A stretch of DNA of 64,000 bases from Heterotrichella gracilis (taxonomy: Eukaryota > Sar > Xanthophyceae > Tribonematales > Xanthonemataceae): assembly GCA_032358255.1 (NCBI GenBank), contig JAULBX010029599.1, positions 124,001 to 188,000 of the forward strand. The letters run 5' to 3'. The position numbers and the translations under genes are program-made. The notes beneath the pieces are model-generated. The model made no database searches. It worked only from the letters and a program-made list of their open reading frames with translations, and was not told the origin of the DNA. Positions 21,001-64,000 of this stretch are shown one piece after another (positions within the stretch are counted from its first letter, which is position 1; each line of letters opens with the position of its first letter).

Positions 21001-22615
21001 TGCCCTAAGTGGCAATGGCATATATTTTCTGTTGGTGCAGCAGGGAGAGTCCGGCTACTGAAAGAAGTGACATGCAACAGCCGTATGAATGAAGATGGGG
21101 AGCTGCATGACCTGTGCCGGGATCCCCACCGCCCATACACGGGAGCGCGCCGACGGCCTTTTTGCATACAATGTGCGCGCATTTACATGGCACGGTGCGC
21201 AGGTACATCCAGTGCCTACCCTGTGCTGTCAGCTCCCTCCCGCCCTGCGCCTTGCACGGCGCTGCTTGTCCCCGAGGTGCAGTCCAGGCCTGTGGCACCG
21301 CTGGGGCTAAGGAAGGGGTGCGCGAAAAACTCCTCAAAGGAGATGCGCTCCACCGGGTTGCGCCGCAGCAGCTGGTGGATGAGCTGCTTGCAGGGGGCGC
21401 TCAGCTGCGCCTCCACCTGCGCAGGCAGGGGTGGATATGGTTTGTTAGACAGCAACACATTGGGGCTTTTAATATGCGCCTCAACCTGCGTTTGGCAAGA
21501 GGGCATGGTTGGGCTGTGCCTTTAATAGCTGTGCCCACACATGGTGAGCTTTGAAAAATAAATATTGACAGGAATCATGGCCTTCATGTCCTGGCCGTCA
21601 TACCACACCACCACCACACCCTCTGTGGGGTATGCAGAGGGCCGCACCTGGTCAGGGATGACCACGTTCTGCCTCTCTATGTTGCGCAGCAGCTGCACAT
21701 GGTTTGCTCCATAGAAGGGGGGCTTGCCGCTGACCAGCTCAAACAGTATGGCACCCACGCTCCACAGGTCAGCTTTGGCGTCGTACTTCTGGAACTGCAG
21801 GATCTCGGGCGCCATGTACAGGGGAGATCCACAAAGGGTTTCCAGAAGGCCCTGGGGCTGCAGGTTCCTGGCAAAGCCGAAGTCTGCTATCTTGAGGGTT
21901 CCCTCAGGGCTTGAGACCGAGAGCAGCAGGTTCTGTGGTTTGAGGTCCCTCTGCAAGAACAACCCAACCAAGGTTGAGCAAACCAGGCCACAGTCGTTGC
22001 CACCACAAGTTGTGCTATTTTGAGTCTGTAACTTCAAAACATTTGTCTTATACACTGGAAATAGCCAGCTTGGAAGCCAGGGAATACGTACGTGCACCAT
22101 GTGGTGAGCCCACAGCTCCCGGAGACCAACAGCAAGCTGCTGCATAAGCCGGTGCGCAGTGGCCTCCTCTATCCGTTTCTCGCGCTTTATGAACCTTGCA
22201 AGGTCCCCACCCGCGCAGTATTCCATGACGAGGTACATTCGGTTGTTCTCCTGCCCACAGGGAGTCAACCTCAGCAGGCATACACACGGCATGCATGCAT
22301 ATGTTGCTCAACAACAGCGCAGAGTGGGCAGTGCTGGAGCAACAGACAGCAAAACAAGGACTAACGCTGAAAACTCGCCTCAATAACCTCGTAGAGCTGC
22401 ACTATGTTTGGGTGGTTGATACGCTGCAGTATGGATATCTCGCTCTCCAGGCTCTGCCGAAGCTTGCGGTTCAGCTGCTCCAGTTTTATCTCCTTCACGG
22501 CCACCTCCTGACCCGTGTCCCTATGCCGCGCCTTCCAGACGACGGCAAACGAGCCGGAGCCTATGTGGCGCTCCAGCAGCCAGTTCCCAAGCACTCTGCT
22601 CGTCCCGTCCCCCAT
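18059..22615 (-). CDS. ATG1: ATG1/ULK autophagy-initiating Ser/Thr kinase
   Basis: The ATG at 22615 starts [20 protein letters not shown], an N-terminal kinase domain with glycine loop GSGSFAVVW, catalytic lysine in VAVKEI, RDLKPQN (the H before it is in the previous exon, VH|RDLKPQN), DFGFARN, and APEIL. The closing segment, [20 protein letters not shown], is nearly diagnostic of plant and algal ATG1. A Pro/Ser-rich disordered linker follows; it contains [11 protein letters not shown], which could be an ATG8-interacting motif (inference). Two helical C-terminal exons (about 19105-18785 and 18250-18059) resemble the MIT-like EAT domain that binds ATG13. ATG1 with ATG13 starts autophagosome formation under nutrient stress. 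The protein is roughly 700 residues, as expected. Exon borders are approximate. It is divergent from the GRIM-19 gene. Confidence 0.85.
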
Positions 22616-30700: not shown

Positions 30701-33383
30701 CATTTCTTTTTATTCTGCTCCATTTTATACTTTAATATTATACCATATTTGTATTTGCATCAAAGGGCCACCACGCAGGCAGAGATTGTCGCACCTGCAC
30801 CAGGTCCATACGCTCCTTCTGCAGCTGGTCCCGCTCCTGCTGCAGCTCCCGCAGCTTGTGGTCATACTGCTGCTTCAGCGCGCTGACAGGTGCCTGGGTG
30901 CTCTGCAGCTTGGTGAACTGCTCCTCCTTGGTGGACAGCATGGCCTGCAGCGCATCAAGCTCCCGCCGCACACGCTCCTGCTCCGCCCTGCAACAACATG
31001 GATTTTTAGCTCAAATGCTTTGGCCACAATTTTGTTTTTCAAGAAACAAATGCAATTACCAAATTTAAATCTTTGACTAGTTTTATAATGTTCTGTCCTC
31101 AGATTGAACAACCCAGGAGGCGGTACAAGGGATTGCCATGCAATGCCAGGGCCAGCTGCATGGTATCCTATGCCATCCCGGAGGGTTGCCCACCTGTGCG
31201 CCTCCTCCTCAGCAGCAAACTCCTCGTCATCTGCCAGGCTCTCCATGTCCCCTGAGGAGCCCCCTCCCCCAGAGGACATCAGCTCGCCAGTGCTAAACAG
31301 CCCAGGGCTTTCTGCGCCGCCGATCATCTCACTCAGGGACAGCCGGCGCTGGTTGACAACGTATGCACCGCTCACCCTCGACACCTTGCGCAGGCGCTTC
31401 ACCTCATTCTCCAGGTCTGAAATGCGCTGCAGGTGGCCCTTGAGGACATCCACATCCGCCTGGTCGGCCTCAGCTGGCTGTCCAGTGGCGGACAAGAGCT
31501 GAGATTCACGCATTCGCGCCGCGTCACGCTCGGCTTGAGCTGTCAGCAGCTGTCCGCTCGTCTGAGACAGCTCCTGCCGAAGGGACTCCTGCCAAGGTGC
31601 AAACCCCATGTCAGATACCCCATCAGCTGGATTGTCACATCGGTACACAACATGCACACAGTCTGAGGCTGAAACAACCAGCATGCGTACCATTTCAAGC
31701 CGCAGGGTATCATTCCCCAGCTCCAGCTTGGAGTTTCGCCGCTCAATCTTGTCAATGGCCTGCTTCATTGCAGCATCAACCTCAGTGGCGGCGCTCCAAG
31801 CCTCCGAGCCATTGTCTGACAGCTGCAACCTCCGCCTGAGGGTGGCGTTCTCCGCCCGAGCTGCGCTGAGCTGCTGCCGCAGGTAGGCCACTTGCGCTGC
31901 CACAGGGTCTCTGTTCACCACCGGCTTGTTGCGGATGTTCCTGGCGCGGTTGGCGTAGCGCAGGGTGTTGAGAGTCTCCTCCAGGTTGATGTCTGCTGGG
32001 CTGACGCAGGCGATCATGACTGTCCTGCTGTTCCCACCCAAGGAGTCCTGCAGCATGCGGGTGAGCTTGCTGTCCCGATAAGGGATGTGCGCCTTGCCCT
32101 CACTCAGGGCGCAGATGACGTTGCCCAGCGCCAGCAGCCCCTTGTTGATGTGCACACCCTCCTTGAAGCGCTGCCCTTCTGCCTTGGTGCGCTTGGCCCG
32201 CTCGCTGCCTGCCAGGTCAACAAGGTGCATCTTGGCGCATAGGAAATCCTCCACCGCCTCCTCCTCGTCGCTGCCCTCGTCTGAGTCATCGTCGTCGTTG
32301 TCGCGGGCAGTGGCGGGCTTTGTGGGTGGCAGCTTCCTCCGCTGCTCAAGGGTCACAGTGAAGATGGCGTGGGACCGGCTGGAGTGCTTGTTCATGCCAG
32401 TGGAAGCTGTGGCTCGTATAAGGGAGCCCTGCTCCAGGACAGCAACCATCTCCTCTCGCGTGCTAACCTCCCTTTCTGTAGCCCCAGCCAGGCACACCCC
32501 TCCCCCAGCGACCTCCCGAATCTGGATAGACTGATGCGGTGCCGTGTCCGCAATCAACAGGTCCTTGATTTCCTCCTGCAAAGTTGAAGCACACGGCAGG
32601 AGGGTTTCAGATGGATGCAGACAGCTTCTGGGTGCTCTTTGTTGGTAGAATTGATACAACTGCACACCCAGCGCCCCTCACCTTGTGAATCTCCACAAAG
32701 CCGACCCTCACAGTGAACTGCACGTCCTGCTCTGAGTTGATTTTGTGAAAAATTGTTTCCATGCAGTGTGGTATGACTCCCTTTGCACTGCCCCCCGGCG
32801 AGAACGCACTGCCCATGGTGTATGTCTTCCCACTGCCTGTTTGCCCATATGCAAACACCGTGCAGTTGTACCTGCATGCAGGACAAGAAAGCCGTCAGGG
32901 GTAGCAATGGCTTGCATATTCAATTTATTCTACGTTTTGCGGTTAGCAGAGTGCCAGATGGAAGGTGCACAGGACCTTTGGGCTGCAATGTCAACACAAA
33001 TGGCACTTGGGACTTTTGGCCTCACCCCTTGAATAGACCTTCGACGAGTTGGTGCACGCATCTGTTGTACAGGTTGTCAGGGTGGTCACCAACTCCACCA
33101 AACACATGGTCATAGGTGAAGGTGTGAGCACCACTGGTGACCTGCGAAAGTGGTCATGCAAACGTCAGGAACCAATCAGTTGGTCAGCCACGCATGCGAG
33201 GCAGTCAACCTGGTATCAACCAACCTGAGGCTCGTTTGGCGTCACATACAGGCACTCTTGACAACCGTCTGCAAGTTCTGCGGATATGAGAGGCCTGACG
33301 TTGACTGCCACGCAAACGCTACACTCTTCCGCTTCTTTCCCTGGGCATGCGTCTCCGCCACCAGGGAAAACCTCCTCGTCCAT
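24744..33383 (-). CDS. Kinesin-4 family motor (KIF4/FRA1-like)
   Basis: About nineteen exons encode roughly 1550 residues. The N-terminal motor opens with [20 protein letters not shown], a kinesin-4 feature, and carries the P-loop GQTGSGKT, switch I NKHSSRSH, switch II DLAGSE and [19 protein letters not shown]. The motor ends at [20 protein letters not shown], the typical kinesin-4 neck. A long coiled coil follows ([48 protein letters not shown] and others), then a helical block (27792-28158) and acidic Ser/Pro-rich tail exons. The C terminus reads [15 protein letters not shown]. Plant kinesin-4 (FRA1) moves along cortical microtubules in cell-wall deposition, and animal KIF4 acts on the spindle midzone; which applies here is unknown. 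The ATG at 33383 ([10 protein letters not shown]) is chosen as the first Met before the motor. Exon borders are approximate. The gene is divergent from the coiled-coil gene at 33783. Confidence 0.88.
29045..29715. mobile_element. Possible non-autonomous element with inverted ends in a kinesin intron
   Basis: The kinesin intron at about 28888-29758 contains inverted ends. Near 29048-29075 the plus strand reads GTATGGGGTTGGTTTTG, and near 29685-29715 the minus strand reads GTATGGGGATGGATTTG. Inner copies of TTTGTTTTGGTATAAG lie on both sides. Between them is a diverged direct duplication of about 115 bp (29330-29390 versus 29415-29480, each with TTTAGAGTG and a CTGCAGG-like or TTGCAGG motif). 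There is no coding capacity. The ends fit a foldback or MITE-like element, but no target-site duplication is clear. Confidence 0.45.
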
Positions 33384-36700: not shown

Positions 36701-38190
36701 CTGTGTGCTGAGGAACTCCATAGTATTGCTGCCTTTTTACTTTTAACCAAATGTGGACCCCACCTTGCAATGGCTTGATGCAATTTATGTTCTTTCTGTC
36801 CATCTGGCATGCCGCGCAACATGTTTGCTACATTTCATTGGGATTTGGATTATTTTTGTAGTAATCTTCTGCTGAACAGGTAGTGCAACTTCTGAAAACA
36901 ATGCAAGAGGAACAAGTGCGGTTGCGGGAGCAGTTTCAGCACCAAGCTGAAGCTGTTTCAAAGCTTGAGCAGGATGTTCTGCGTGCGCAAGGGTGAGATT
37001 GCAGTCATTGACCCCTTGATTACCACTATGATTCCAATATTGACTACATTCACAGCTTATAAATTCAGTTGTCTGTCTGCCTGCCCTTGGGTGCAGTGCA
37101 CCCACTTGATTTATGGTCATTTCCAAGTGTTATTGCATGCCCGTGCAACGGTCTTGCAAATGATAGGCAAATGGGGCGCACTTGGAATGCGCAGCATTGA
37201 TGCCAGGGAGCAATCACTTGCCTAATTGCGCTCCAGCCAGATTAGCAGTCTGAGACTCATCATGGCTTATTCACTGTTTGCTGTATTTTGCAGGGAGAGG
37301 GACAAAGCTCGTGAGGAAGTATCCAGGGTGCAAACCATGCTGGATGGACACCGCCCTTCTGCATTATTTCAAGAAGGAGAAGACCCAGACACCCTTGCAG
37401 CTACCAGCTATTTTTTGCCAGCTGATGTCACCAAAATTCCATCAAGGCTCAACACCCCAGCACTGCCAAGTATTGGTGCTTCACATACTCAACCAGCAAG
37501 TACTTTGTCATCCAAAGCAGCAACATCAAATGTGACTGGTGTCAAGAATACAAAAGGGGTCAAACCCCAACTTGCAGGCAACAGTTATGCTTCCCGGCAA
37601 GGCATGGCCAAACCTGTGTCGGCAAGCAACGATATTGGGGCAAGCCGATCAGGTACGCTGTGGTTTACCCGATAACTGGTAATTACATATTTATATTGGT
37701 AATGCATTTTATATGGACCCACCTCAGTGGGCCTGAGGCCAGCACCATTGGCGTCTGAATTTATGCCATTGACGGACACCACCAGGACCATCGCAGCTTT
37801 TGAGCAGGCCCTAATATTAATGCCACCATAAATCATTTGCTCTGTTGCTATATGCAATTGGATTTATTATCATGATTATGACAATAATTATCTGAGGTAT
37901 AATACCTCCAATCGTATTGAACACATAGTCAAAACTGTGCACCGAATCAATCTTGCATGGCCATGATGTACATGCACCCATGATCTTGCACGTGCCCCCA
38001 ATGCTTGTGCTGGTCTGCAGGGGTCTTGCAAAAGCAAGCATTTGGGGCAAGCAGCCGCCGACAGTGGCAATTACCAGCTGACAGCATGCAGCGGGCTGAA
38101 TCACGCAAGGTGTTGAGGTCAAATTTTACAGCAGGCCAAACCACAGCAGGGTCTATCCACAACAGCCAACATGGGTGGAGGCGAGGATGA
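33783..38190 (+). CDS. Coiled-coil protein, possibly CSPP1/CCDC66-like (centrosome or microtubule)
   Basis: Thirteen phase-checked exons (33783-33834, 33997-34068, 34150-34235, 34338-34502, 34604-34750, 34857-35017, 35192-35358, 35443-35621, 35960-36071, 36349-36650, 36880-36992, 37294-37652, 38021-38190) encode 694 residues. Short charged coils alternate with Ser/Pro/Gln-rich disorder: LRRKYLLRQQLLHDLDEQ with VQMKKMRQEIERGKQKALEA, then EQQRAEMLKEWEEQ with IRLKQEIVACKKEQQRLQEE, then LKTMQEEQVRLREQFQHQAE with ERDKAREEVSRVQTML. The repeated LRQQ-(x)n-DEQ style is like CSPP1 and CCDC66 of cilia and spindle poles, but I see no decisive domain. If the final intron is retained, the frame ends at 37675 instead. 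Its partner across a short divergent promoter is a kinesin-4. Confidence 0.7.
36131..36176. repeat. TTGATTG/CTGATTG microsatellite-like run
   Basis: Imperfect repeats of TTGATTG and CTGATCG lie in the intron after the exon ending at 36071. They are non-coding. Confidence 0.7.
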
Positions 38191-38258: not shown

Positions 38259-39221
38259 CTACACTGCAACATTGCTGTCTCGTGAACGCTTGAGCTGGCG
38301 CATGATATTTGCCAGCCTGGCAGCTGAACCAAACGCTGTGGGCGGGCCCCATTCAGGCCGCGAAATGCAGCAGCACTGTGACGGGTGCTTGGGCACAAAT
38401 ATGAGCTTCCACACCAGGCTGTACCTTGGCTGCCCTGCGGCTGCTGAAGGGGCCGATAGGCGATGGATCACATCCTGGTCCATCAGCACGCCCCGGCCCA
38501 ACCGGGGCCGCACCATGATGCCAGTGTCTGTGCTGGCATCCAGGAATAGGGTCTCCGCCTGCCATTCCCTTGGCCACTCGGGGTTGAGGTAGAGGATGAG
38601 GCTGACAAACAGCGGTTTCCCTGGTTCGCCATTGCAGTAGTCCCCATATCTGTCTGTAAATGGCGAGTCTGGTAACCCTGAAGGGTCAGCATCTATGTGC
38701 CAGTCGAAGCTGTCCCCATGCACGGCAGCGTTTGCAACGAACTTGTCACAGTCCACAACCGGATCATCCTCGCTGGTGGTGGCCGCCCTTGGCTGCATGA
38801 TTTCCGATGGCATGTGGGCAATGTCATACTCCGGGTACAGCTTGCTCAGCCTGGAGTGCACCTCTTGCATTGCTGGCAGCTCGCTCTCTGCCAGCTGCTG
38901 AAGGACAGAGTGCTTTAGGCCCCACGTGCGCGCTCCTCCTGCAGCGTCGCATGTGCGCTTTTCCCACTTGTCAGCTGGAGGTCCCATGCCATGGTCATGC
39001 CCTGCCGCTGTCAAAAACGCCAGCAGCTCAGCTGCCTCCGATGCTCCCGCAAGCTCATCCAGCACCACCAGATGGCTGTATGCCACCCGCGCCCCACCAT
39101 GCATTGAGGGCACCACCCTGGCGTCCAGTCGCACGTTCATGGTCACCTTGGCTTCATCCGCCTGCCAAGCTGTTTCCTGAAGCTTGACGTACTGCAGTGG
39201 GACCGCGTTTGCCAGCTCCAT
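38259..39221 (-). CDS. 2-oxoglutarate/Fe(II)-dependent oxygenase (prolyl-hydroxylase-like fold)
   Basis: This is a single uninterrupted ORF of 320 residues. The iron ligands fit H175 and D177 (FDWHIDADPSG) and H253 (DQDVIHRLSAPS), with the 2-oxoglutarate-binding arginine at R266 (QPRYSLVWKL). GKPLFVSLILYLNPEW is the double-stranded beta-helix core strand. The domain fills residues 165-275, with an unassigned N-terminal part of about 160 residues. No signal peptide is seen. The substrate is unknown; relatives hydroxylate proline or other protein side chains. Its ATG lies one base after the stop codon of the upstream mL59-like gene, in another frame, so it is probably the second cistron of one mRNA. 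The lack of introns contrasts with all other genes here. The 3' end converges on the coiled-coil gene 68 bp away. Confidence 0.82.
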   Translation of the reverse strand: MELANAVPLQYVKLQETAWQADEAKVTMNVRLDARVVPSMHGGARVAYSHLVVLDELAGASEAAELLAFLTAAGHDHGMGPPADKWEKRTCDAAGGARTWGLKHSVLQQLAESELPAMQEVHSRLSKLYPEYDIAHMPSEIMQPRAATTSEDDPVVDCDKFVANAAVHGDSFDWHIDADPSGLPDSPFTDRYGDYCNGEPGKPLFVSLILYLNPEWPREWQAETLFLDASTDTGIMVRPRLGRGVLMDQDVIHRLSAPSAAAGQPRYSLVWKLIFVPKHPSQCCCISRPEWGPPTAFGSAARLANIMRQLKRSRDSNVAV

Positions 39222-39222
39222 G

Positions 39223-39747
39223 CTACTTGGCGGTGCCGGTGTTCTGCTTGAACTTGCGCTCCTTGGTTGTGAGCAAAATCTTGTCCAGCAGCGAGTTGTC
39301 CTTCAGCTTCTTTGCCTCCTACACAACCCAGTAGCGTGCAGAGTCATTCAAAGCTGCCACATTGAAAGCAAATAGTGTGAATGCTCATCCTGGCGGCTCG
39401 GAAGGCTGGCGTGCAATGGCTAGGTGTGCAACACGCAACTAGCGTAAAATGCAACTTCCAGGCAACCTTACCCTGTATTTGGCTATCTTCTGTGGCATGT
39501 TTTTCATGTTCTCCTCGATCTCTGCTTTCCTGATCAGCTGGAGCCTGTCCACCTTGTGGCCCTTGGGTTTCTTGTATGGCCTGGGCTTCTTTTCTTGCTC
39601 AAACTCCCACTCCTCTCCAGCGAGGAGGGTCTCTTTCCGCAAGCGCGCAGAGTTCTTGGCAGAGATGGCTGGTTTCCACCACAGGCCGTTCACCTTCTGT
39701 GGCTTGAGAGCGGCCTCACCAAACTTCTTCAGCAGTGCTAGTGCCAT
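39223..39747 (-). CDS. Mitochondrial large-subunit ribosomal protein, mL59/mL64-like
   Basis: Two phase-checked exons (39747-39472, 39318-39223) encode 123 residues. It is a very basic protein: LLKKFGEAALKPQKVNGLWW, KPAISAKNSARLRKETL, RPYKKPKGHKVDRLQLIRKA, then IEENMKNMPQKIAKYREAKK and a C terminus with LTTKERKFKQNTGTAK. The run G-x-W-x-K-P-A-x-S, then LRKE, then KGHK-x-D-R, then MP-x-x-I-x-x-YR fits what I recall of the plant and algal mL59/mL64 mitoribosomal protein; this assignment is from memory. If right, it sits in the mitochondrial 50S-like subunit. The start is the first in-frame ATG, and the upstream gene (Acinus) is divergent. The TAG stop is followed by one base and then the ATG of the oxygenase gene. 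Confidence 0.6.
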
Positions 39748-40367
39748 TAATCCTGTCTTGCAACGCTAGCCTATTGCCCCATCATTTACCCGTGACAAAG
39801 AGGTACATACTATTGCAGCAACTGAATAGACCCCCCAGCTACAACGGCAAGAGTGCCGGCACTGGTGACGAGAAAACCGCTATGGCTGGGGTGGCTGATT
39901 GTGGGCAGTATTCCCTTTTACTAACAGAAGGTTGGGAAAAAGGCACCCTGGTGGTAAAAGGGTGACAACTACGAAAGTTCCTGTGGACTGTTGTCCCACT
40001 GGGCCAGAGGCAAAGTATAATGGCGCAAGCTGTAAACAGGACCATATGCATGCATGTTCAAGGGGGGAACACATAAAGGCGGCCACAGTGGGTCAGGCAT
40101 GCATCAACGCATCAATGGATGTCTTCTTCTTCTTCTTCCTTTGGGCTATTATACAACCAACAAAAGGCGTCGAATACTTAACGCTCAAAGGGCGTTTTCC
40201 TACCTGGTCGCTATTTGCTTGCCTATCTCCACGTTCAGCTCGGGCCCTGCTGGATCAACGTTTCATGACAGGGCAGTGACACAAGTTTGCTCCCCGTACT
40301 AGCCTGGGGAAGTTATCACGCCTGCTGCTTACTACTGTCGTGCACAGGACGTTGTACTGCATCAGCC
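39748..40367. promoter_or_regulatory. Divergent promoter region, mL59-like/oxygenase unit and Acinus
   Basis: The 620 bp between head-to-head starts should contain the only promoter available to the mL59-like/oxygenase pair, and that of Acinus. Long open frames cross it on both strands, but none resembles a known protein. Confidence 0.4.
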
Positions 40368-42866
40368 ATGGGTACGGAATGGGTGGATAGCTTGAAGGTG
40401 AACGAGTTGAAAGATGAGCTCAAAAAGAGGAAGCTGAAGGTTGGAGGCGTCAAAGCTGAGCTTATTGCTAGGCTGAAGGAGGATATTGTGGCGAATGCGG
40501 TACGGTGCATGCTCTGTGTATTTGCCTTTTACCGTTCAAACTCGTGAACGACATGCGCCTGTATATGCATGCATTGGGCACGGGACCCATCAGTGCGCAA
40601 TGTCGCCAGGCTAGTCGTGATTCAACCTCCGAAAGGCGTGCATTACCGTTGTTTCCAGCTTGTATCAAGCCACTTGCTTGGCCAACCGCAGGAAGCTGGC
40701 GATGAAACTGCACCTGCAGAGGTTGCTGACGAAGCACCCCAGCAGGAGGAGCAAGCAGCAGAAGTGCAGCCAGAACCTTCAAAGGCTGAAACAGCCCCTG
40801 CACCTCCCGAGGAGGAACCAGCTGCCCCCGCACCAGTTTCAGAATCAGCTCCGGAACCTGCTCCAAAAGCAGCAGATGCGCCAGCTAATGAGGCACCAGC
40901 AGATGAGGCTCCCGCACCCGAGCCAGTGGCAGCTGTGGAGCCTCCCGCACCTGAACCAGTGCCAGCACCGGCACCGGAGCCAGAACCTGTCGCATCCCCT
41001 GAGCCAGCCGTCGAGGAGGCGCCACCAGCAGTAGAGGAGGAGGGGCCACCAGTTGTTGAGGAAGAAGCCCTTGAACCAACCTCAACCCCTGAGCCAGTCG
41101 CTGCAGCAGAACCAGCAGCTGTAACGGAGGAGCCAGCACAAGAGGACAGCCAGCCCGACAAAGCGGCAGAGCCCATGGATGAAGACCCAAAAGCAGAGCC
41201 CCAAGCAGAGCCCAAGGCACAACATTCAGAGACTGCCGAGAAGGTATGTCTCAACTCTGCAAGCTGGCTGTTGTGATGGAGTCGGCCAGAGCAACGCTGC
41301 ACACTATCGGTATGAACCAATCGGAAGGGGGAGGGTGTTGTCACCACCGGCAATGACCTCATTGTAGTATATCATGCTCGTGGTCTGTTAACCTGAACCT
41401 CTAATGCTCTCAGGGCGAGGAGCCAGCAGCTGTTGAGGCTGACCTGCCCGTCATGCATGCTGAAGAGGAGCTTGATTTTGAGCTGGCTCCCGCTGAGGAG
41501 GAGATGGACGAGGCACCCGAGCCCGAGCCAGGTGCGGTAACTCACAGCTTAATATACACTAAAGTTGAGTTTCTTTATTTTAGACAAAGTTGCTGTCAAA
41601 AAGTAAGACTCTCAAAATGCATTTTGTGAATGGCTGCTGAGACAGGATATTATGTTGATGCAGAAGTATCAACGAACCGCAAGCGCAAGGCATCGCCAAT
41701 TCCGGCTCGCAAAGATGAGGACCAGCCTGCAGACAAGGTGAATACCTTTCTATACTTTCTGATGCATGCATATCCTGTACCGAAGGCACTAAACATGCAG
41801 CGTAAATTTGGTAAGTGATGTGATGGTTAGATGCTGAGGGCCTGCTCCATGCCATCAACCAGGACATTCCTCTCCCGCAGGCCTTGCCAGAGCGCTCTGC
41901 AAAGCTGCAGCGCGTCCTGTCCAACAGGATTGCACCGCAATTGGCGGGGGGCGATCGCCCCGCCAAGGCCGCCGCGCCGGCCTTCAAAGGCCCGCCCTCG
42001 CGCGCACTGCGCATCGACAACTTTGTGCGCCCCTTCACCGAGCCCGCCTGCCGCACCATGCTGGCGGAGACCGGCACCCTGATCGACTTTTGGATGCCCA
42101 CCATCAAGACGCACTGCATCTGCATCTTTGAGAGCGAGGAGCAGGCAGAGGCCACGCGCCAGGCCACCTATGACCTGGAGTGGCCCCCAGGCAGCGGCCG
42201 CAGGCTGCTGCCTCGGATCATCCCCTTGGCGGAAGCTGAGCGCCTCATCCTGCAGGCCACTGGGCAGCCGAGTGCGAGCGCCAAGGCGCGTGCAGGTGGC
42301 GCTGCGGAGGTGAAGGACAAGGTGGTGGCTGTGGCGGCTGCCAGTGCCAGCGCCCCGAAGGAGGCGCCGGAGGCTGAGGCGGGCGGGAGGATAGTGCGAC
42401 CAGTGGGGGATGTGCGGGAGCTGCTGCGCGCCCAGCGGGTGAGTGGTTTGCACTGGATCACGTGCTGCATGGTGCGGACCCTGGCGTGGCTGCAATACTG
42501 CCCAAATGTCATTACAATCATTCACATTCATGACTAGCATGGGCACATGGATGGTCGCACAGGACCTATGCTGAAATTACAGAGCAAAACCCCAGCAGCA
42601 TGCCAACCACACCCCCTGCCATTTTCCAGGAGCGGCGGGAGCGTGAGGCGGGTCAGGCTGCCCGTGTGGTGCCTGTGGAGGCGGTCAGGCCCCGGCGGCC
42701 CGCACCCCCCGAGCCGCGCAAGGCGGTTACCCTTGAGGATCTGTTCCGCAAGACCACCACCAAGCCGCCGCTGTACTGGCTGCCGCTCACGGACGAGCAG
42801 GTGGCGGACAAGAAGCAGCGCGACGCCTCGGCGGCCAATGGCGCAAGCAATGGGGCTGCGGCGTAG
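40368..42866 (+). CDS. ACIN1: Acinus homologue (SAP domain, RRM-like domain, RSB motif)
   Basis: Seven phase-checked exons (40368-40499, 40692-41243, 41414-41536, 41584-41602, 41664-41737, 41881-42438, 42630-42866) encode 564 residues. An N-terminal SAP domain (KVNELKDELKKRKLKVGGVK) binds nucleic acid. A Pro/Glu/Ala-rich acidic linker of about 200 residues follows. An RRM-like domain has SRALRIDNFVRPFTEPACRT and HCICIFESEEQAEATRQATY. The C-terminal RSB motif, AVTLEDLFRKTTTKPPLYWL, is the hallmark of Acinus; it holds RNPS1 and SAP18 in the ASAP complex on the exon-junction complex, acting in splicing control. One exon is only 19 bp. The caspase-linked name comes from animals and is not implied here. 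Confidence 0.9.
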
Positions 42867-43806: not shown

Positions 43807-46800
43807 CTACTCGTCATCAGAATCCTCCTCTGACTCTGCCTCCTCCAGCCAAGCCACAAAGGCCTTGGCAGCCGCGCGCACCGCCGCCGCGCCGCTCTCA
43901 CTCACGTCCACCACGCTCGCTGCGTCAGCCTTGTTGAACCAGGCCACGATGATCTCCTCATCCGCAACGTCACCGTCGTACAGCACCTTGAGGGCCAGGG
44001 CAGTCTCCTTGACCTTCTCGGGGAGCACCTGGGGTGACATACTCACAGTGAGCTCCCAAACCTAAACCCTAAAAACCTTGAGAACACGTCGTGGAAGGAT
44101 GTGAGATGGCGATGCAGGGGTGCATGTCCCGTACGCCCATGCGGATGGTGTGTAATGATAGCATTGTGTGTAGCTAATCATCCTCGCCAAGACCAATGCC
44201 ATAGTGGCAACGTCAGCAGGTTTAACACTCAGACGGTAACTTTACTTACCTCCACGTGCCCTACGCCACATGCCACAGGTACGCCAGGTGCACCCCACCA
44301 TGCACTGGCAAAGCAAGCATGTGCACGAGATGCGCAACAGGTAAAGGTAATACATAGTGGATGCACCAGCGGGGAGGGAAAAGGCTAGTCCCCTACCTCA
44401 GCCAGCAGGTACTCCAGTGCCACCAGCTGCGCCAGCTGGCTCTTGGGGTCACCCGCCAGTGCCACCAGCAGCTCCACGTGCATTTGGAGGGCTGGGGCCA
44501 GCTTGGCGTCACCCACGTCGCCAAACAGGGCCTCGTACAGCACGCGCATGCGGCCTGGGGGGGGGGGGGGCACCAGATGGTAAGCAAAGCAGGACAAGAG
44601 TCTGAGATGCACCACCGCACTTGACCTCGGGGCCCGACGAATATTAAAAAAAATGGATATTTAATTTGATTTTCTTACTGAATCATCAAAACATGCTCAT
44701 GAAGATGCATACACTGCTTTACACCGCAGGCGCATCATGAAATCATGCTCATGAAAATGCATACACTGCTTTACACCGCAGGCGCATGCCTTCACACAAC
44801 GGCAGCGGCGCCTCACCCACCTGCCAGCCCCCCCTTGACCTCCATCTCCTTGAGCTTGGCAGCAGTCTCCTTGGCGCTGTGGCTGTCAGCGAATGCGCGC
44901 AGGTCTGACAGCTGCGCAGCCACCTGGCGGGCAGCCTCCTCCAGTGCCAGCTTCTGCGCCAGCTCCTCCGCTAGGCGGGCATCCTCCTCGGCCTGAAGAG
45001 CGTATTGTGGGGCAGAAATCAGGCCATAATGTCCACAGGGGCACACCATTGCATATCGCATGGTACGCTGCAGGCCGCATGGTAATAGGCCGTTGAACAA
45101 GCGTGCTGCTTTGTACCATGCCACGTGCATGGGTCCCATGCACATGGACATGCACAACGCCATCATAAACCACCCACCGCCAGCTTCACACATGAACACC
45201 CAGACACCAGCCATTTGTGGACCAGGATTGCGTCCCCCTTTCCCCCCCCCCTTGCCATCGTTCATGCAGCTTCTACCAGTAGTTGTAAACACACCATGCG
45301 TCCCCCCAACCCAGCCTCACCCACCCACCACCTTAAGCCTGGTCGCCTCCTCCGCCCTCGTGCACCCATCCCCCACCAGTCGCCGTAGATTCCCCACCCA
45401 CTCACCCACACCCACACCCACACCCACCCACCGTAAATCCCCCACACACCCATGCAGCCACCCCCTCCCATGTTCTCCCACATCCACCCACCTTGAGCCT
45501 GGCCTCCTCCTCCGCCAGCACGCGCGCCGCCTCCTCCTCCGCCTTGCGCTTGGCCTCCTTGCGCTCCGCCTCGATGTTGCCCTGAGTCACCAGCGCAGCG
45601 GTGGCGCTGGTCAGCTGCTCAGCAGCGCGCGCTGCGATGGCGGCCTCAGAGGTGTCGGTCATCCACACCACCTCGTCCTCGTCGTCCTCCTCCTCGGACT
45701 TGTCGGCGGCCTGGAGATGTAGGGTTTAGGGTTAAGGGTTTGGTTGCAGGGTTCATGGGTGGGTGGGGTGGGGTGGGTATCTTGGCAGGGGTGGACTGCT
45801 GTACATATGGGCAAGCCAATAGGGATGGGAGGCAATGGTGGGTGGGATACTGCCGTGCGGGGGCCATGCATATGCAGTGGGGTCCGTTGTCTTTATGTCT
45901 GCATTCAGTTGGCAGCATGCGTGCTGGTGCGCCTTGGCATTTTGCCTTTCAGCATGCCACCCACTGGCTCGCGACGCCGAGGTGATGTTTGCATGCCTAG
46001 TCCGCCAAGATGTGTGTGTGTGTGTGTACGTACCTCCATTGTGGAATCCTCCTCAGGGGGGGAGCCATCGGTGAGGTCCAGCTTGCTCTTCTTCTTACTC
46101 TTGTCCTTGCCATCCTTGTCCCTGCAGGGCAGCAGCGATAGCGGGTGATGCATGGAACCTATGTGCCAGGCTGGGTGCGGGAGCGAGCAACTTGTACCAG
46201 TGATGCAAGGAACGCATGTGCCGGAACACCGGCTGGATGCGGGTGCAGGCAACTTGAAACCACCACTCACTTTTTCTTCTTCTCCTTCTCCTCCTTGGTG
46301 TCGTCCCCGTTTACCCCTTTGAGCCTCTCCGCCTCCATCTTCTTCACCCTGCACGCCAAATACACCGTTGTTGACTAAAATGCCTTACTGTGATTTAATT
46401 TAATTGTAACCTGTATGCCAAATTGAAAACCCTCCTGCAGTGCAGCACGCCCGCGGCGACCATGACATCATTGCTTTACTTCAAAAGCAATTGCATTGGG
46501 AGGCGCAGAATGTGTGCAAAGTGCAGCAGCACCCCACGCACTTTTTCTCCGCCTTGCTGAGCTTGTCATCCGGCGGGTTCTTGATGATGAAGGTGTTGAG
46601 CTTGTGCCTGTGGTCCACGTCAGACACGTTCCCGCACGCCTTGCACTTGAGCATGATGCTCTCCTTCCTCAGCTTGACTTGCGTCTCGGGGTTGCCGCAC
46701 GCGTAGCACTGCACATAGGTCTTGATAAAGCCCTCCAGCATCGTGGACAGTGTGTTTGCATCGTGGGCGCCGTTGACGATCGAGGTCCCTGACTTCTTAT

Positions 46801-47203
46801 CAAACTTGGTCTGAGCACCAAGCTCACACCCAAACCACTTGATGATGTCTGCACCCAATACCGAGCGTCAGACAGCTGACACAGGGCAGCATGCCACTTG
46901 CAACAAATGAAATCTATTGTGTATTATGCAGGCATGACGTCCAATAGCCAAGCAGCAATGGAACACTCACACTCAGGGGGGCGCTCCAGGGCCTTTGCAA
47001 TATCCACATTGTTCACGATGTTGGTCTTGATGCCGTTGCCGCGCCCCTCAATCTGCAAGAACACTACTGTTAGTTGCTGCATAGCATGTATCAAAGAGCA
47101 ACCCAGCAAAGCACGTGACAAGAGGGCTCACCCGGGCCTGCAGCCTTGGCATCTTGTAGCGATAGAAGGCATCGCCTGCGTTGGCTTCACCGATGTTCTG
47201 CAT
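43807..47203 (-). CDS. EIF5: Translation initiation factor eIF5
   Basis: The ATG at 47203 begins [20 protein letters not shown]. The arginine in FYRY falls at residue 15, the position of the GAP arginine in eIF5. Next come [20 protein letters not shown] with [24 protein letters not shown], and the C2-C2 zinc ribbon CYAC...CKAC. A Lys/Glu-rich spacer ([18 protein letters not shown]) is followed by the C-terminal W2/HEAT domain. That domain ends in the acidic-aromatic box [17 protein letters not shown], which contacts eIF2-beta and eIF3. eIF5 promotes GTP hydrolysis on eIF2 at start-codon recognition. The estimated length of about 460 residues is normal for plants. About nine exons are seen; borders are approximate. 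Confidence 0.92.
44692..44787. repeat. 52-bp tandem duplication in an eIF5 intron
   Basis: The phrase CATGCTCATGAAGATGCATA (44692) recurs at 44744 with one change, and the next 24 bases also match. The second copy ends just before the exon boundary near 44822. Confidence 0.9.
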
Positions 47204-56600: not shown

Positions 56601-59600
56601 AATGGCCACTCAAATCACAACCCTGCAAATGGCGTTGTGGACGTGGCTTGGCTTGGGAGAGTATGGCCAGCTATAGTGGCTAGCATGTAGCTGGCCATTC
56701 TTCGCCAAGTCTCACCGCGCCCACAACCCCAAATGCAGTCTTGTGATTTCTATCGTGGCTTGCTGTCCACTATGACTTTTATAGCTTTGCATTAGTAGTG
56801 ACCATTTTATTAATTTATTTATTGTTGTTTCTTATATCTGTGATTTATGGTCACTCCTCCAGAACTTGCACTGTGCAATATCAATGGGTGATCTGCTTAC
56901 GACCCCCCCCAACCCCCCCCCTCATTATCCCCTGCCTGTCCCACAGAGCCTCCTGGCATGGCCCCCGCAAGGCACGCCACCCCCCCGCCCAGGATCAAGC
57001 CGCAGGGATGCATCACTGCAGGCTGGGATCCCAGGCGGCCCACCCCCATCCCCACCCCCAGCAATTGCTTCCGGTCCCCAGTACCAGAGCCCAGGGGCTG
57101 GAGGTCGTTGGTCTGGAAATCTGGGGGAGCGCCCCAGGGATTCCAGGGATTCCAGGGAGAGGGAGAGGGAGAGGGAAAGGGGAAGGGGGGGAGGGCGAGG
57201 GGGGGACTTTCAGAGGGAGCCAAGGGGGGCGAACGATGGCAAATATCCCCGGTCAGGGGATGGCAAGGCGCCGCTGTGCATCTCCATCAACAAGAAGATC
57301 ACCAATGCCAATGGGCCAAATGTAAGTTGCGGGAGCAAGGCACACAATTGTTGCAATCCTATAGGAGGGATTCTGGGTGTGGGCTGCCTCAGCATGCCTC
57401 AGCAGCAGTGCGTCACCACTTAAATATAAAACCGTCGTTGTGAGAGTCTGAGTTACATTACTGCAACTGGCACTGGGTCTGAAAATGCCAACTGCCAAGT
57501 TTCCAAGTGCATTAACCTTTCTTTGCGTCGCGGGTGAGGTTCCTGTCTCCCCTCCTGGTACCCATTGTGTGATTTGCTACAAGCCACCCACCATCCTGCA
57601 CCAGCCAAAAAAAACCTATAATAGGGTAAATCTCATTACCTGGAGCCCTGCGCACAGGACATCCCACCTGGTACGCGAGTGCAACCCAATTAAGCAGGCA
57701 CTTTTGATGCTGTGTGCATGGCCAGCATACCGCTGGACCTACGCACATGACCCCATGACCTTGTTGTGGTCAAGTGGTTCCCTGCCCAGCTGCCAGCTGG
57801 CGCATGTGGGGCGGCAGCTGGGCAGGAGCTTGCTCGACCGCAACAAGACCTGGGTAGGTACAGCATTTGATGTAAGTAATTACAAGCAATTATGCCTTTA
57901 GCAAAGGCTAGATTGTCGCGAGAATCGTTGTGGGTGACCTTGACAAAGCCTGACAGTTCAGTGCCCAGCACAATCTGTGTGCCAAACCGTTGAACGTCTG
58001 CAAGGGCCACCACTGAGGTTAGGGTTCAGGGTTCAGGCGCCACCACTCAGTGTAGGGTTCAGGGTTTAAGGTCTCCTAAATTAGGAGGTCGACACTTTGC
58101 CATGCTGCCGCTGACTGGGGGCTCCACTCTGCGCTGCACAAACCCTAAACCCTGAACCCTACACTGAGGGCTCCACACCGATGCATCCACACTGCTCTGC
58201 ATAGTGGCCACCTCACCACCTGGACCCTGTTTACAGCCCCGATTTTCTCACCCCCTCAAAATCTTGCCCGCAGGACCTCTTGGACCTGACAGGCTTCCTG
58301 TGTGGGCAGACAGCTGGTTCCATGTGGCTCCCCTGTGCACGCAGACAACTTTGATGCTGTGTGCATGGCCACTGCTCAAGCTGGCCAGCAAAGGACCCGC
58401 CTCACCCATCTAAAACCCTCCGATAGGGCCGACCTCACCACCTTGGGTGCAAAACCCCTAGCCTAGGGCCTGCCTCACCCCCAAAATACCTGCTCGCAGG
58501 ACATTCTGGATCTGGTGCGCAACCCTGAGTACGCAGACAACTTTGACGCGGTGTGCATGGCCACTGCCCTGCACAAGCTGGCCAGCCTGCGCATGACTAA
58601 TGTGCAGATGGTGCTGCTGGTGGAGCGCCCGGAGTTCCTCATGCTCAAGAGGATGCTAGGTAACTTACCTCGGAGGGTTTGGGGGATATTACAAACCCTA
58701 GTGGGTGGATGAAGACGTTGTGGCCAAGCATTGGATTCGATGCCACGTTCAGCAAGAAAACATTGCTCTGCTCATAAACCAAAATGGACCCTCTCCAACC
58801 TCAATGTTCTGCCCGTGCATCATGCTTGAAATTTTAACCACCAGCCCCTTCTAATGCCTTCCCTGTGACAGTTCTGGCTAATGATGCAATCCACAACTCT
58901 CTCAGTACCCTGTACTACATGTCCTGGAACATGCAACCCACCCACCCACACCCATGTGCTTCCTGTAGAGTCCAACATCGAGAGCTTCACAGCGCGCAAC
59001 CTGGCCAACAGCATCTGGGCGCTGGCCAAGCTGAACCACAACCCAGGGGCAAAGCTGCTGGGGCTGATCACCGACCAGATTGCGGCCAAGGCGGAGGACT
59101 TCAATGCGCAAAACCTGGCCAACACGCTGTGGGCGTACGGCACGCTCGGTGGGTTTGTGGGAAGGTTCCACCTTGTAGGATTTGGGATTTGGGTACACGC
59201 CATGCGTTGTTCCGGGACTATCACTTGTGGGTGTTCCTTACCCTGCTTCTAGGGCATGGTTTTTGTTTTTGCCTAGAGGTGGGGGAGCTGTCTCGCCACA
59301 GTGACTGGTCGGACTGCATAGTCTCCTCCCTGCAAGCCATTCCCCCCTCAAATTGTGCAAAAATATTTGCAATTGGTACATCCATGGAGAAATTGAAGCG
59401 GCAAGTGATAGGTGATCAGCATGCACCTCCTCATATCTGTGGACACGCGGACCGCTAAGGAATCCCCATCCACATCCCCACCAGGCACCCATCCCGGGGA
59501 ACATGTGCTTGATGTGCTGGCCAAGCGCTGCGAGGCGCGCCTGTCTGAGTTCACCTCCCAGAACATCAGCAACACTGTGCTTGCGTACGCCAAGCTGGAG

Positions 59601-62600
59601 CACTGCCCCCGCTCCCTGCTAGATGCAATCACCACTGATGCGCTCAGCAAGATTCGGTCTTTCTCGCCACAGGTGGGGTGCAATGGGGGTGGTAGGGGTG
59701 ACCCTAGCCAAGCAGGGGGCAAAAGGAGGAGGGGAGGTGGGGGGGTATGGTGGCGCCATTGGCAATCTGTGAATACCTACTTTTAAAGGGTGTGAGGTTA
59801 GCTTTAGGGGTATTGAGCAAATATTGAGCCTTTTAAACACACACTGCCATGATACCATCAAATACTGGCACCTTTCCCAACCTGATCAAGGCTCACATTG
59901 AAAAACCTCAAGTCCTTACAAAACCCTTCTCCTCCTTTGAGGCTTACTCTAAATTCCACTCTCCCTGCAGGCTCTGAGCAACACGGTGTGGGCCTTCAGC
60001 AAGCTGAACATGCCACGGGTGGACCTGCTGGAGGCTATTGCCCAAGAGGCGTGCAGGCAGATATCTGAGTTCAACTCCCAGAACCTAGCAAACACGGTGC
60101 GCCTTTGGTGTATTGGTGCCCAGGTTTTCTCCCCATTCGTGGGTTAGTACAACAGTTGTGGTATGCCGCACTGCTGCGCCAATCCCAAACCCTAACCTTA
60201 ATCGCTAAACCCCAAACCAGCAGTCATTGTGCATTTGCAGAGTGCTGTCACCACAAGAAGTAGCGGGATAGCTACATCATTGCACAATGTAGCCTATGCT
60301 GTCTGTGGACAGGAGGACAATGGCCTCCTCTTCCTGTGTACCACTGGTGTCTCGAGCTATCCATGACAGGCAGGGTAGCTTTTAATATTATTATTATAAA
60401 ATAATAATACTAAAATAATACCGTATTATTTTTACATGCTGGGTGCCTGCGCAGGTTTGGGCATATGCCAACCTGGGCTACCACCCTGACGGCCTGCTGG
60501 AGGCAATTGCAGGTGCATCGGTGGCGCGCATCAGGGAGTTCAGCCCACAGGTAATCACACACAAAAAGTAAATAAGTAACTAAATAGGTAATAATGCAAT
60601 GCTTGGCAGGTGCAATGCTCATGCCACAAACCAGCGACCCAACACCTCGTTAAAATCACTGTTCAAAACAACACTGTTGACTGTTCTGTGTGCAAACACT
60701 TGCACGCAATTCATTATAATAAACTTGTCAGATTATGAATAACATGTGAGCTGCCTGCGCAGAACATCAGCAACACTGCGTGGGCATTTGCCAAGCTGGG
60801 TGTGCAGATGCCGAGGTTCATGGAGATTGCTGCGCAGCACGCAACAGCATCCATGCACACCTTCCAGCCACAGTCAGGTGAGACGCTGCATATACATGTG
60901 CTACACCTACAGCCTCCCAACACGCAAATAGGATTAAATTATCCCAGGTGCGTCATGCAACAGAAGCATATGGCGCATTGGAAAAAGCCCTTTGAGTTCC
61001 AATGTATCCTGCGCTTCCAGCACTGCTTTTTTTCGTCTTGTCTCAAAGTCAAAATCTTAGGTATACCTAAGTAAGGTTTGACTTCGAGACAAGACAGGAA
61101 AAAAGCAGTGCTGGAAGCGCAGGATACATTGGAACTCAATGGGCTTTTTCCAATGCGCCATATGCTTCTGTTGCATGACGCACCTGATTTCGGATAAATG
61201 TTTTCACCACCTACGCAGTGGTATCGATTGTCAACCTTTTGCCCACCTTGCTGTTGCCTCTGCAACAACATTCATAAACTGGATGGTCCTCCAATCTGGC
61301 ATCACTTTGCACTTTGTGTTTTGCAAAATGGGAGGCTCCTCATCCCCCCCCATCCCCCTGTTGCAGTGGCCAACATGGTGTGGGCCTACGCTACCCTGGC
61401 TGTGCAGCCAGACAAGATGTTTGTGTCTGCGGTGTGCAACCATGCGCTCAAGACCCTGAGGGACTTCTCTGCGCAGAACCTGTCCAACACCGTGTGGGCC
61501 ATGGCCACGCTGCGCATCTCACCCGAGGTGGGGTCCCAATATATTCTTTTTTATTAAAAATGTATTGATTTGATTGACTACAGAATCCTGCGGCGGGGTT
61601 CTGTGCATTGCTTAGTTGCCATTTTTTGCCTGTAAAGGAATGGGTATCTGTGCTTTCTCCTCAGGTGGGGTTCATTGCAATTACGCGATGCCTGGTATTG
61701 CCTGCAGCCATTTTGCTATGCGTGGTATTGTGTCGTGCGTGGCATCGTCGTGCAGGTCTGAAGGTATGCGTTATCTGTAGATTATAATCAATCCAGCTGT
61801 GGGATCACACTACATGTATAGTGTACACTACGCCTTTGGAGTCTGTTTTAAAAACTGACCTACCCTAACAACTCACAGGACAAATCACACACACACACAC
61901 ACAAACGTAAACAAGAAAAAGTTGGGCCAATACATGAGTGGCAGTGTTACTTTAGTGCTTTGTTTCCTCGGTTCAAACACTACAGTGCTTAGTAAATACT
62001 CAGCCATTGTGGCTGTGCTGTCGAGACCAGGCTGTTAAGTATAACTGCCGCTATTGTTTTGGCCATTTCCCCCCGCTTGTTTTCATTGGTGTCCTGTAAG
62101 TTGCAAGAGTGGGTGAGTCCTTTTATAACCATGTTGCCCTGACCTTGAAACACCATGCAGTCCATGATGGTGAGTGCATTTGCGCAGCATGATGACTGCA
62201 CAAACAAAATGAATCAGGTGGCAAAGTCCTGACAATGACAAGTATATTCGCCTCCAGGGCCTGCTGCCAGCTGTCGCTGGTGAGGTGGCAGTGCGCCTGG
62301 CCTCCGACAGGGGCCGCGACTTCAGCCGCCAGCATTTGGCCAACATCATGTGGTCCTTCGCAACCCTGGATTACAACCCCGGCAGGCGGCTGCTGGACGT
62401 GGTTGCCAGCGCCATGTGTCAGCGCGCCAGCGACTGCAACCCGCAGGAGATGAGCAACACTGTGTGGGCGTACGCAAAGCTAGGTGCGCAGCCAGGCCAC
62501 ATGTATGCCAAAATAAAGTTAATATTATTTTGCCTATTATAGGGAGGAAGTCAATGAAAGCTTTAGCAACACTGTGTGGGCGTACGCAAAGCTAGGTGCG

Positions 62601-64000
62601 CTAGTGTTACAATTGCAAGTTCGGCCTCCATGCCAAAAGTTGGATATGAATGCCAAGAGCATCTACAAGCAGTGTAAAAGCGGGCAAATGTTTTAGCTGG
62701 AGATGCCCATTATGGGCTCTTGATGCTCATCCCTTTGCAACCCCTGACCTGAGGCCCAGCATATGGGATCCCGGGATCCATGTAGGGATCCATGGGGGTC
62801 TGGGATATTTACCTGCTCCCCTCTACCCCTGTTTGCAAGCCACTACAATGCCACCTTGCCGGAGACCTTTGCCAGCCATATATATCCATTTTTGACATGA
62901 AAGCTATTTTGCAATCGTAATCATAGCATCCACCCACTCCCATCTACCCCTATTTGCAGGCCACTACAACGCCACCCTGCTGGAGACCTTTGCCCGAGAG
63001 GCTGAGAAGCGCATCGAGGAGTTCAGCCAGCAGAACCTTGCCAACCTTGCATGGGCGTTTGCCAAGCTGACCCATTTTGACCAGGCGCTGCTTGATCAGG
63101 TGGCCGCCAGGGCGGTGCTCATGATCAAGGTAAGGGGGAAAAAGGGCATTTCGCGGTCAGGTGATTGGTGCAGATTCCGTCTTACAACCATGTTTGAAGT
63201 AATTTTGTGGTGATAGGGGCCGGTCAATTTGAAGCACGATTTAAATCCCCCACTCCTCTCCCTCAGCAGTTGAGCCTACACCCTACAACCCTCCTCAAAC
63301 TCCACATTATGAAACCCTACACCCCCCCTCCCCTCCCCCCCCGCAGGAGCTGAGCCTGCAGCACATCACCAACATCCTGTGGACCTACGCCACCTTTGCC
63401 TACCCCACCCCCTCGCTGGTCACATCCATCCTTGACGAGGTGGCGGAGCGCACCCTCACCCAGCAGTTCAACTCGCAGCAGCTCTCCAACCTGCTGTGGT
63501 CGCTGTGCATTCTCAAGGTGGGGATCATAATAGAGTGAACAAAGCAGTAAGTATAAAATGGGCCAAAAAAAGGAAATACACCCAACTCACAGCTGTCAAG
63601 CCTGCTGTGGTTGCTGAGCATCCTCAAGGTGGGGATCATAATAAAGTCAACAAAAACTTTGAATGAAAAACCCAATTACCCAGCTTATTTTATATAGGCG
63701 GGTTGTTCGAGGATAGCACTTTGGCAACTGGTTGCAAAATATTAAATATGAGAAAGCATTCCCACTACCTGCCTTTAAACCCTCAGGCTTCCTTGCTCTA
63801 GGCCAATCCTGAAGGCTCTCTTTGCTTGTGCATAATTTGATGCGTCGTTGTTGTAGTGCCTGTTGCATTCTACTCACCAACTGTCTGCACCCATGCCATA
63901 CATGCCCTCCCCTCATAGCCCTCCCTCACATTGCACCATCTTCACTGATTATTCCCCTCCCCTTGCTCCAGGTGTGTGATCCCACCATATGGACCAGCGC
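53643..64000 (+). CDS. Octotricopeptide-repeat (OPR) organelle RNA-binding protein, 3' end outside window
   Basis: Nineteen exons are visible (53643-53856, 54118-54262, 54412-54455, 54761-54922, 55322-55481, 55731-55972, 56353-56525, 56947-57321, 58500-58659, 58969-59148, 59485-59672, 59971-60096, 60455-60550, 60763-60877, 61367-61527, 62258-62483, 62960-63129, 63347-63517, 63972 onward), all phase-consistent, giving over 1040 residues. The first 500 are disordered: a Ser/Thr/Pro start resembling a transit peptide, Pro/Tyr/His-rich and RGG-type stretches, and an RERERERERGRGGGRGG run. A conserved lead-in follows (ISINKKITNA joined to ILDLVRNPEYADNFDAV). Then come thirteen repeats of about 37 residues of the form F-x-x-Q-N-L-A-N-T-x-W-A-x-A-K-L (for example FNSQNLANTVWAYANLG). 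Such OPR proteins bind one chloroplast or mitochondrial RNA and control its stability, splicing or translation. The target cannot be told. A RAP or other domain may follow outside the window. Confidence 0.85.
54941..54997. repeat. Interstitial telomere-like TTTAGGG repeats in an OPR-gene intron
   Basis: GTTAGGGTTTAGGGTTTAG and following degenerate units lie right after the exon ending at 54922. They match the plant-type telomere unit TTTAGGG. Confidence 0.85.
58018..58168. repeat. Inverted pair of telomere-like repeat blocks (OPR-gene intron)
   Basis: A block with CTCAGTGTAGGGTTCAGGG (58046 onward) is matched on the opposite strand at 58146-58168, with about 75 bp between. A further copy of AGGGTTCAGGGTTCAGG precedes it at 58021. 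All units are degenerate TTTAGGG/TTCAGGG. Confidence 0.85.
58256..58395 (+). pseudogene. Degenerate duplicate of OPR exon 9 inside the preceding intron
   Basis: After an acceptor-like CCCGCAG, the sequence GACCTCTTGGACCTGACAGG aligns with the start of the true exon at 58500 (GACATTCTGGATCTGGTGCG). Later, GCAGACAACTTTGATGCTGT aligns with the same exon at 58531. The middle has an insertion and the frame is lost. A smaller third copy (TTTTGATGCTGTGTGCATGG) lies at about 57702. Confidence 0.8.
60945..61186. repeat. 242-bp near-perfect inverted repeat (long hairpin) in an OPR-gene intron
   Basis: The left arm begins CAGGTGCGTCATGCAACAG at 60945. The right arm is its reverse complement, ending at 61186. 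The arms are about 109 bases each, with only about four differences, around a short centre that is itself palindromic (CTTAGGTATACCTAAG). There is no coding capacity and no clear target-site duplication. It could be a recently inserted foldback/MITE element or a precursor of small RNAs. Confidence 0.92.
62548..62612 (+). pseudogene. Duplicated 3' end of an OPR exon inside the next intron
   Basis: TTAGCAACACTGTGTGGGCG (62563 onward) followed by TACGCAAAGCTAGGTGCGC repeats the end of the true exon and its donor (62452-62491) almost exactly. A second copy of the donor site therefore lies about 110 bp downstream of the real one. Confidence 0.85.
62832..62882 (+). pseudogene. Duplicated 5' end of an OPR exon inside the preceding intron
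   Basis: GCAAGCCACTACAATGCCAC and the following bases repeat the start of the true exon at 62960 (GCAGGCCACTACAACGCCAC), including a CCCCTCTACCCCTGTTTG lead like the real polypyrimidine tract. The acceptor AG is mutated to AA, which may be why this copy is not used. Confidence 0.8.
63575..63660 (+). pseudogene. Duplicated 3' end of an OPR exon plus donor inside the next intron
   Basis: AACTCACAGCTGTCAAGCCT through CTCAAGGTGGGGATCATAAT repeats the true exon end and donor at 63473-63540, with a few changes. The match extends into the intron (CATAATAAAGTCAACAAA against CATAATAGAGTGAACAAA). Confidence 0.85.

Follow-up and report, generated by a model that had tools for sequence, protein, structure and literature searches.

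A probable bicistronic nuclear locus with a one-base gap between a gene of the mL59/mL64 mitoribosomal protein family and a predicted 2OG-Fe(II) oxygenase gene

How are two nuclear genes expressed when the stop codon of one lies a single base ahead of the start codon of the other? The question is raised by a locus on the minus strand of the window, i.e. the whole stretch of 64,000 nucleotides of DNA that was analysed. A preliminary description had proposed that the two genes share a bicistronic mRNA. The 1-nt gap, the coding-like character of both open reading frames, the occurrence of known pairs in the expected order in this genome and the start codon contexts all favour this proposal, which they stop short of proving. 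Since a TAG stands one base before an ATG in another frame, a single mRNA likely yields both proteins. We consider it probable that the locus is one transcription unit, that the spliced mRNA carries both ORFs, and that the second is translated mainly by leaky scanning.

Layout of the locus

The first ORF (ORF1) comprises 372 nt in two exons and encodes 123 amino acids. Exon 1 (39472..39747, minus strand) opens with the ATG at 39747 and is followed by a 153-nt GT-AG intron (39319..39471, minus strand) and by the 96 nt of exon 2 (39223..39318, minus strand), which terminates in TAG at 39225-39223. A lone C (39222, minus strand) separates this stop from the ATG of the second ORF (ORF2; 38259..39221, minus strand), resulting in the junction TAG-C-ATG. 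ORF2 is an intronless frame of 963 nt encoding a protein of 320 amino acids, a predicted 2OG-Fe(II) oxygenase-like protein. Each ORF has its own start and its own stop codon, and the frame of ORF2 is offset by one from that of ORF1. The sequence given earlier for this locus, AAGTAGCATGGAG, was found on the minus strand at the position claimed for it.

These coordinates bear out the stop-C-ATG junction of the preliminary description and the complete 320-residue ORF in a different frame. They also agree with its remarks that the second ORF lacks an intron (39221-38259 is open throughout) and that there is no room for a promoter or terminator between the genes, as noncoding space is absent there apart from the single C. 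Its statement that every neighbour has several introns is in line with the neighbouring coding segments viewed collectively, which are many short pieces, and fails for ORF1, which has one. When kept in, the ORF1 intron brings in-frame stops. This intron had no match to Rfam at E values up to 1, ruling out an Rfam-known RNA gene inside it.

Upstream of ORF1, a region of 620 nt (39748..40367, minus strand) separates it from a divergent plus-strand gene that starts at 40368, and the promoter of the pair is presumed to reside in this region. The divergent gene (40368-42866, plus strand) displays an SAP-like start, a middle that is acidic by eye and a terminal RSB motif (PF16294), and looks like an acinus homologue. 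On the other side, a TGTAA (38126..38130, minus strand) lies 129 nt 3' of the ORF2 stop; judging from other green algae, it is a candidate poly(A) signal. No further TGTAA occurs on the minus strand between 40500 and this copy at 38130, and no AATAAA between 40500 and the ORF2 stop. Because the enrichment of TGTAA 3' of stop codons is weak in this genome (two tests), the motif is taken as a mere hint.

ORF2 may actually begin at a later methionine, e.g. residue 28 or 40, in which case the gap would be wider. For codons 2-27 of ORF2, the score per codon is 0.29 in frame, whereas the other two frames have -0.48 and -0.87; ORF2 itself was part of the training set.

The two predicted proteins

The protein encoded by ORF1 scored 34.8 bits against the Pfam family Mitoc_mL59 (PF18126; cut-off 31.5) and matched PDB chains named mL59/mL64, from E = 2.6e-10. 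Chains 7pkt_J and 8a22_Yi, both of which we take to be green-algal, align from their residue 4 with its residues 5-6 and following, and this N-terminal alignment supports the ATG at 39747. Across the 68.5-Mb assembly (903 contigs), ORF1 is the sole PF18126 match found, and the protein's only match is this locus. By its sequence, the ORF1 product is a member of the mL59/mL64 mitoribosomal protein family, in agreement with the mL59-like identity first assigned to it.

A side observation concerns two of the PDB chains. 8a22_Yi and 8a22_AJ belong to one mitoribosome entry, presumably that of Polytomella magna, and are named mS114 and mL64; about 100 of their 103 aligned residues are identical and the differences are confined to the N-terminal edge. 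Given this near-identity, either a single gene may supply both or the two names may have been applied inconsistently. In the P. magna paper (PMC9576764), mS114 occurs once in the text and mL64 never.

The ORF2 protein passed the cut-off of the 2OG-FeII_Oxy_3 family (PF13640) marginally, with 28.5 bits against 27, and had no match to PDB sequences at E values up to 1. Reading of the sequence pointed to H175-x-D177 and H253 as candidate iron ligands and to R266 as the candidate 2OG-binding residue; a second HxD is found at 168-170. Together, the PF13640 match just over the cut-off and the HxD...H...R set sustain the 2OG oxygenase identity originally given to this ORF, and we predict a 2OG-Fe(II) oxygenase-like protein. 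A single-sequence structure model displayed a mean pLDDT of 32.9, too low to judge a double-stranded beta-helix fold. FlmC, the only NCBIfam match, was dropped as a name, since its 29.8 bits are far below the cut-off of 240. The sole match of ORF2 in the 68.5-Mb genome is this locus. Viral contigs and prokaryote genomes were scanned by a method that detects close relatives only; these scans yielded no relatives, and PHROGs gave no match.

Coding potential was assessed in 264 kb, made up of this window and 200 kb from contigs C706 and C14, by means of a home-made codon model that delimited 211 coding segments. The in-frame score of ORF2 is modest, with means of 0.03 to 0.29 per codon, and its frame outscores both others in four of four stretches, a comparison that favours ORF2 somewhat as it is among the training segments. 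ATG-initiated ORFs of at least 320 amino acids numbered 10 in the 264 kb (both strands), against a total of two in 20 single-strand Markov shuffles.

The preliminary description had also raised the idea of a mitochondrial or ribosomal target for the oxygenase. We found no support for it. Residues 1-30 of ORF2 contain two K/R and four D/E, and such a net acidic start is unlike a typical mitochondrial presequence. Furthermore, in the main text of Duenas et al. 2025 (PMC11892635), the two proteins of the majority of green-algal bicistrons apparently do not work together, and many pairs differ in predicted location and have unrelated functions.

Genome context and known bicistronic pairs

Exon-joined PsbO matched best to PDB chains 6kaf (401 bits) and 8bd3 (400 bits), presumably from Chlamydomonas and a Chlorella, respectively. 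On the basis of these matches, the genome is likely that of a core green alga. The window also holds minus-strand exons for a protein kinase (21522-22307), a kinesin motor (31199-32578) and an eIF5/eIF2B domain (46481-46867), and a plus-strand exon series (58467-63538) with repeated 'SQNLANTVWAYAKL'-like units that by eye resembles organelle-RNA repeat proteins.

Two gene pairs served as controls. On contig C14 (71191-74364), REX1B (PF14966) is preceded on its own strand by a 75-residue TFB5 protein (PF06331, 89.1 bits), which we take to be REX1S, the partner of REX1B. The 283 bases between these two ORFs contain no ATG, against 3.3 expected. On contig C6, a CDC26 start (MLRRKPTRIELRPEDKE) lies about 0.9 kb upstream of the sole CYTH (TTM3-type) match in the genome, on the same strand. 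At 22.2 bits (E 0.016), the CDC26 match falls short of its family's cut-off of 24.5, but among the matches listed up to E = 10 it is the only one in the genome, and its position is as expected. REX1S-REX1B and CDC26-TTM3 are both described as green-algal bicistronic loci by Duenas et al. 2025 (PMC11892635). Both pairs, the second with a weak match, stand in the known order here, and they are controls for order, not for common transcripts.

Spacing of the pair

Within the 264 kb, 22 same-strand pairs of coding segments had spacings between -60 and 300 nt; a large part of these pairs are probably exons of one gene, and ORF1/ORF2 was the tightest at 1 nt. The next tightest in the raw scan output were 33 and 53 nt apart. 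Near position 22294 of contig C14 (minus strand) we observed a TGA, one C and an ATG, with the start picked by the scan 33 nt further on; this could represent either a further tight pair or an exon artefact. According to the main text of Duenas et al. 2025 (PMC11892635), monocistronic colinear neighbours have median distances of 3,415 and 2,518 nt, while the medians between the ORFs of bicistrons are 183 and 40 nt. In the same source, the median lengths of bicistronic ORFs are 357/291 nt for ORF1 and 1,113/1,185 nt for ORF2, to which the 372 and 963 nt found here are close.

Start codons and translation of the second ORF

Start contexts were ranked as percentiles among 71 home-made, mechanically chosen starts, a noisy model in which only 62% have A or G at -3. 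Under this ranking, the ORF1 start (GGATTA-ATG-GCA, T at -3) is weak, at the 14th percentile, and the ORF2 start (AGTAGC-ATG-GAG) is stronger, at the 70th. Apart from its start, ORF1 contains two AUGs against 4.7 expected, a shortfall of the kind published for bicistrons but on numbers too small to decide, and ORF2 contains 26 against 12.3 expected. The two internal AUGs of ORF1 are in frame, at 39507 and 39498 (39496..39507, minus strand), both with A at -3, and rank at the 27th and 46th percentiles. They are the sole AUGs between the ORF1 and ORF2 starts in the spliced mRNA, and their products would be 43 or 40 codons long, ending one base ahead of the ORF2 AUG. Further upstream, AUGs at 39808, 39785 and 39782 (61, 38 and 35 nt ahead of ORF1) have weak contexts, at the 11th percentile or lower. 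Given published median 5' UTR lengths of 54 or 83 nt (PMC11892635), these would fall partly or wholly in the 5' UTR.

Under the reading that we favour, transcription would proceed from a single promoter within the 620-nt region ahead of ORF1, the single ORF1 intron would be removed, and one poly(A) site would lie 3' of ORF2. Ribosomes would then leak past the weak ORF1 AUG and start at the stronger AUG of ORF2 as the main route. This is how ORF2 of green-algal bicistrons is mainly translated in the account of Duenas et al. 2025 (PMC11892635), which lists weak ORF1 contexts, stronger ORF2 contexts and few AUGs ahead of ORF2 as their features. The two internal AUGs count against simple leaky scanning, since with A at -3 they should catch scanning ribosomes, and in a reporter described in the same paper an extra in-frame AUG severely cut ORF2 output. 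The three weak AUGs ahead of ORF1, which could be part of the 5' UTR, count against it as well. As the internal AUGs are in the ORF1 frame and translation from them would end one base short of the ORF2 AUG, reinitiation could contribute. A minor share of ribosomes that start at 39507 or 39498, stop and restart at the ORF2 AUG is plausible, and some reinitiation is not completely discounted in the main text of PMC11892635.

Two ways of making the oxygenase as a continuation of ORF1 were rejected. Read-through of the ORF1 stop is excluded because the frames differ, and exon 2 has no AG in phase for a fusion of exon 1 to ORF2 by alternative splicing.

Alternative explanations

One bicistronic mRNA might also yield the oxygenase mainly by termination-coupled reinitiation at the AUG one base past the UAG, by ribosomes that have translated either ORF1 to its end or just the C-terminal parts of 43 and 40 codons that begin at its internal AUGs. 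The 1-nt spacing between stop and start speaks for this, as do these two AUGs, both of which have A at -3 and share the ORF1 stop; yet leaky scanning better explains the weak ORF1 start. Nor do the 96 nt of exon 2 contain TGGGA, a motif of viral reinitiation signals. Onishi and Pringle 2016 (PMC5144980) preferred reinitiation for the short junctions of their Chlamydomonas constructs, and described the junction as unstructured, whereas the junction here is not (z of -1.55, with 9 of 200 shuffles folding equally well or better). Moreover, ORF2 output was inverse to ORF1 context strength in the experiments reported in PMC11892635, which argues against reinitiation as the main route. We thus regard this as an unlikely explanation, and we are equally doubtful that a natural nuclear mRNA acts here as a stop-start coupler of viral or bacterial kind, with oxygenase output tied to termination and not to leaky scanning alone.

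Two separate transcripts would call for a promoter and cap for ORF2 in the ORF1 intron or in exon 2, and for a poly(A) site of ORF1 inside ORF2. Internal promoters have a predicted precedent in Auxenochlorella, where they would give rise to many alternative isoforms, according to PMC12633428. In the locus under study, however, noncoding space between the ORFs is absent, the minus strand has neither TGTAA nor AATAAA from 40500 to the ORF2 stop, and the succession of a weak and a strong start context would be a coincidence. Collectively, this makes two transcripts quite improbable. Even harder to credit is the production of only one of the proteins, with ORF2 as a relic or untranslated frame, or with ORF1 serving solely as a long uORF that regulates the oxygenase. 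The modest codon score of ORF2 and its Pfam score barely above the cut-off lean that way, but ORF2 is open for 320 codons, its frame is the best in all four stretches (ORF2 being in the training set) and it holds the full HxD...H...R set, and ORF1 is the sole PF18126 match found in the genome.

Comparison with known systems and implications

Nuclear loci of green algae that are exclusively bicistronic have reportedly been described by Gallaher et al. 2021. The arrangement that the preliminary description invoked is indeed documented in green algae for other gene pairs (PMC11892635). The locus resembles those pairs, as presented in the main text of that paper, in the shared strand, the separate starts and stops, the short ORF1, the weak and then stronger start contexts, the very short inter-ORF distance and the different frames, which are often found in the published set. 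It differs in that its 1-nt gap is far under the medians of 183 and 40 nt, and in that ORF1 contains two further AUGs, each with A at -3. The REX1 gap is 14 nt in Auxenochlorella (PMC11892635) and 283 nt in the genome studied here. The main text of PMC11892635 mentions neither mL59 nor an oxygenase, a hydroxylase or a (mitochondrial) ribosomal protein.

A close likeness is found in an engineered junction. In the constructs described by Onishi and Pringle 2016 (PMC5144980), one promoter gave both products in Chlamydomonas, and linkers such as TAGCAT were enough, with the ATG 3-4 nt past the nearest stop. The synthetic TAG-CAT-ATG and the natural TAG-C-ATG are alike and both without an IRES. Unlike the present pair, the synthetic one belongs to an engineered vector whose ORF2 is a resistance marker, and its linker comes after the upstream gene's own stop, so that the TAG of the linker is an extra stop (PMC5144980). 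In the UAAUG of influenza B segment 7, as described for that virus, a start codon likewise lies at or adjoining the preceding stop; there the two overlap, whereas here they are 1 nt apart. Stop-start reinitiation in influenza B requires upstream RNA signals.

Based on these findings, the locus is most likely one more green-algal bicistron, with an unusually tight junction. If real, it would add to the green-algal bicistrons one whose spacing is near the lower limit of the range. It would also provide a natural test piece for leaky scanning versus termination-coupled reinitiation, because it combines a one-base gap with two in-frame AUGs of ORF1 that end at the same stop. Finally, if real, the junction would be a compact natural element usable in algal two-gene vectors.
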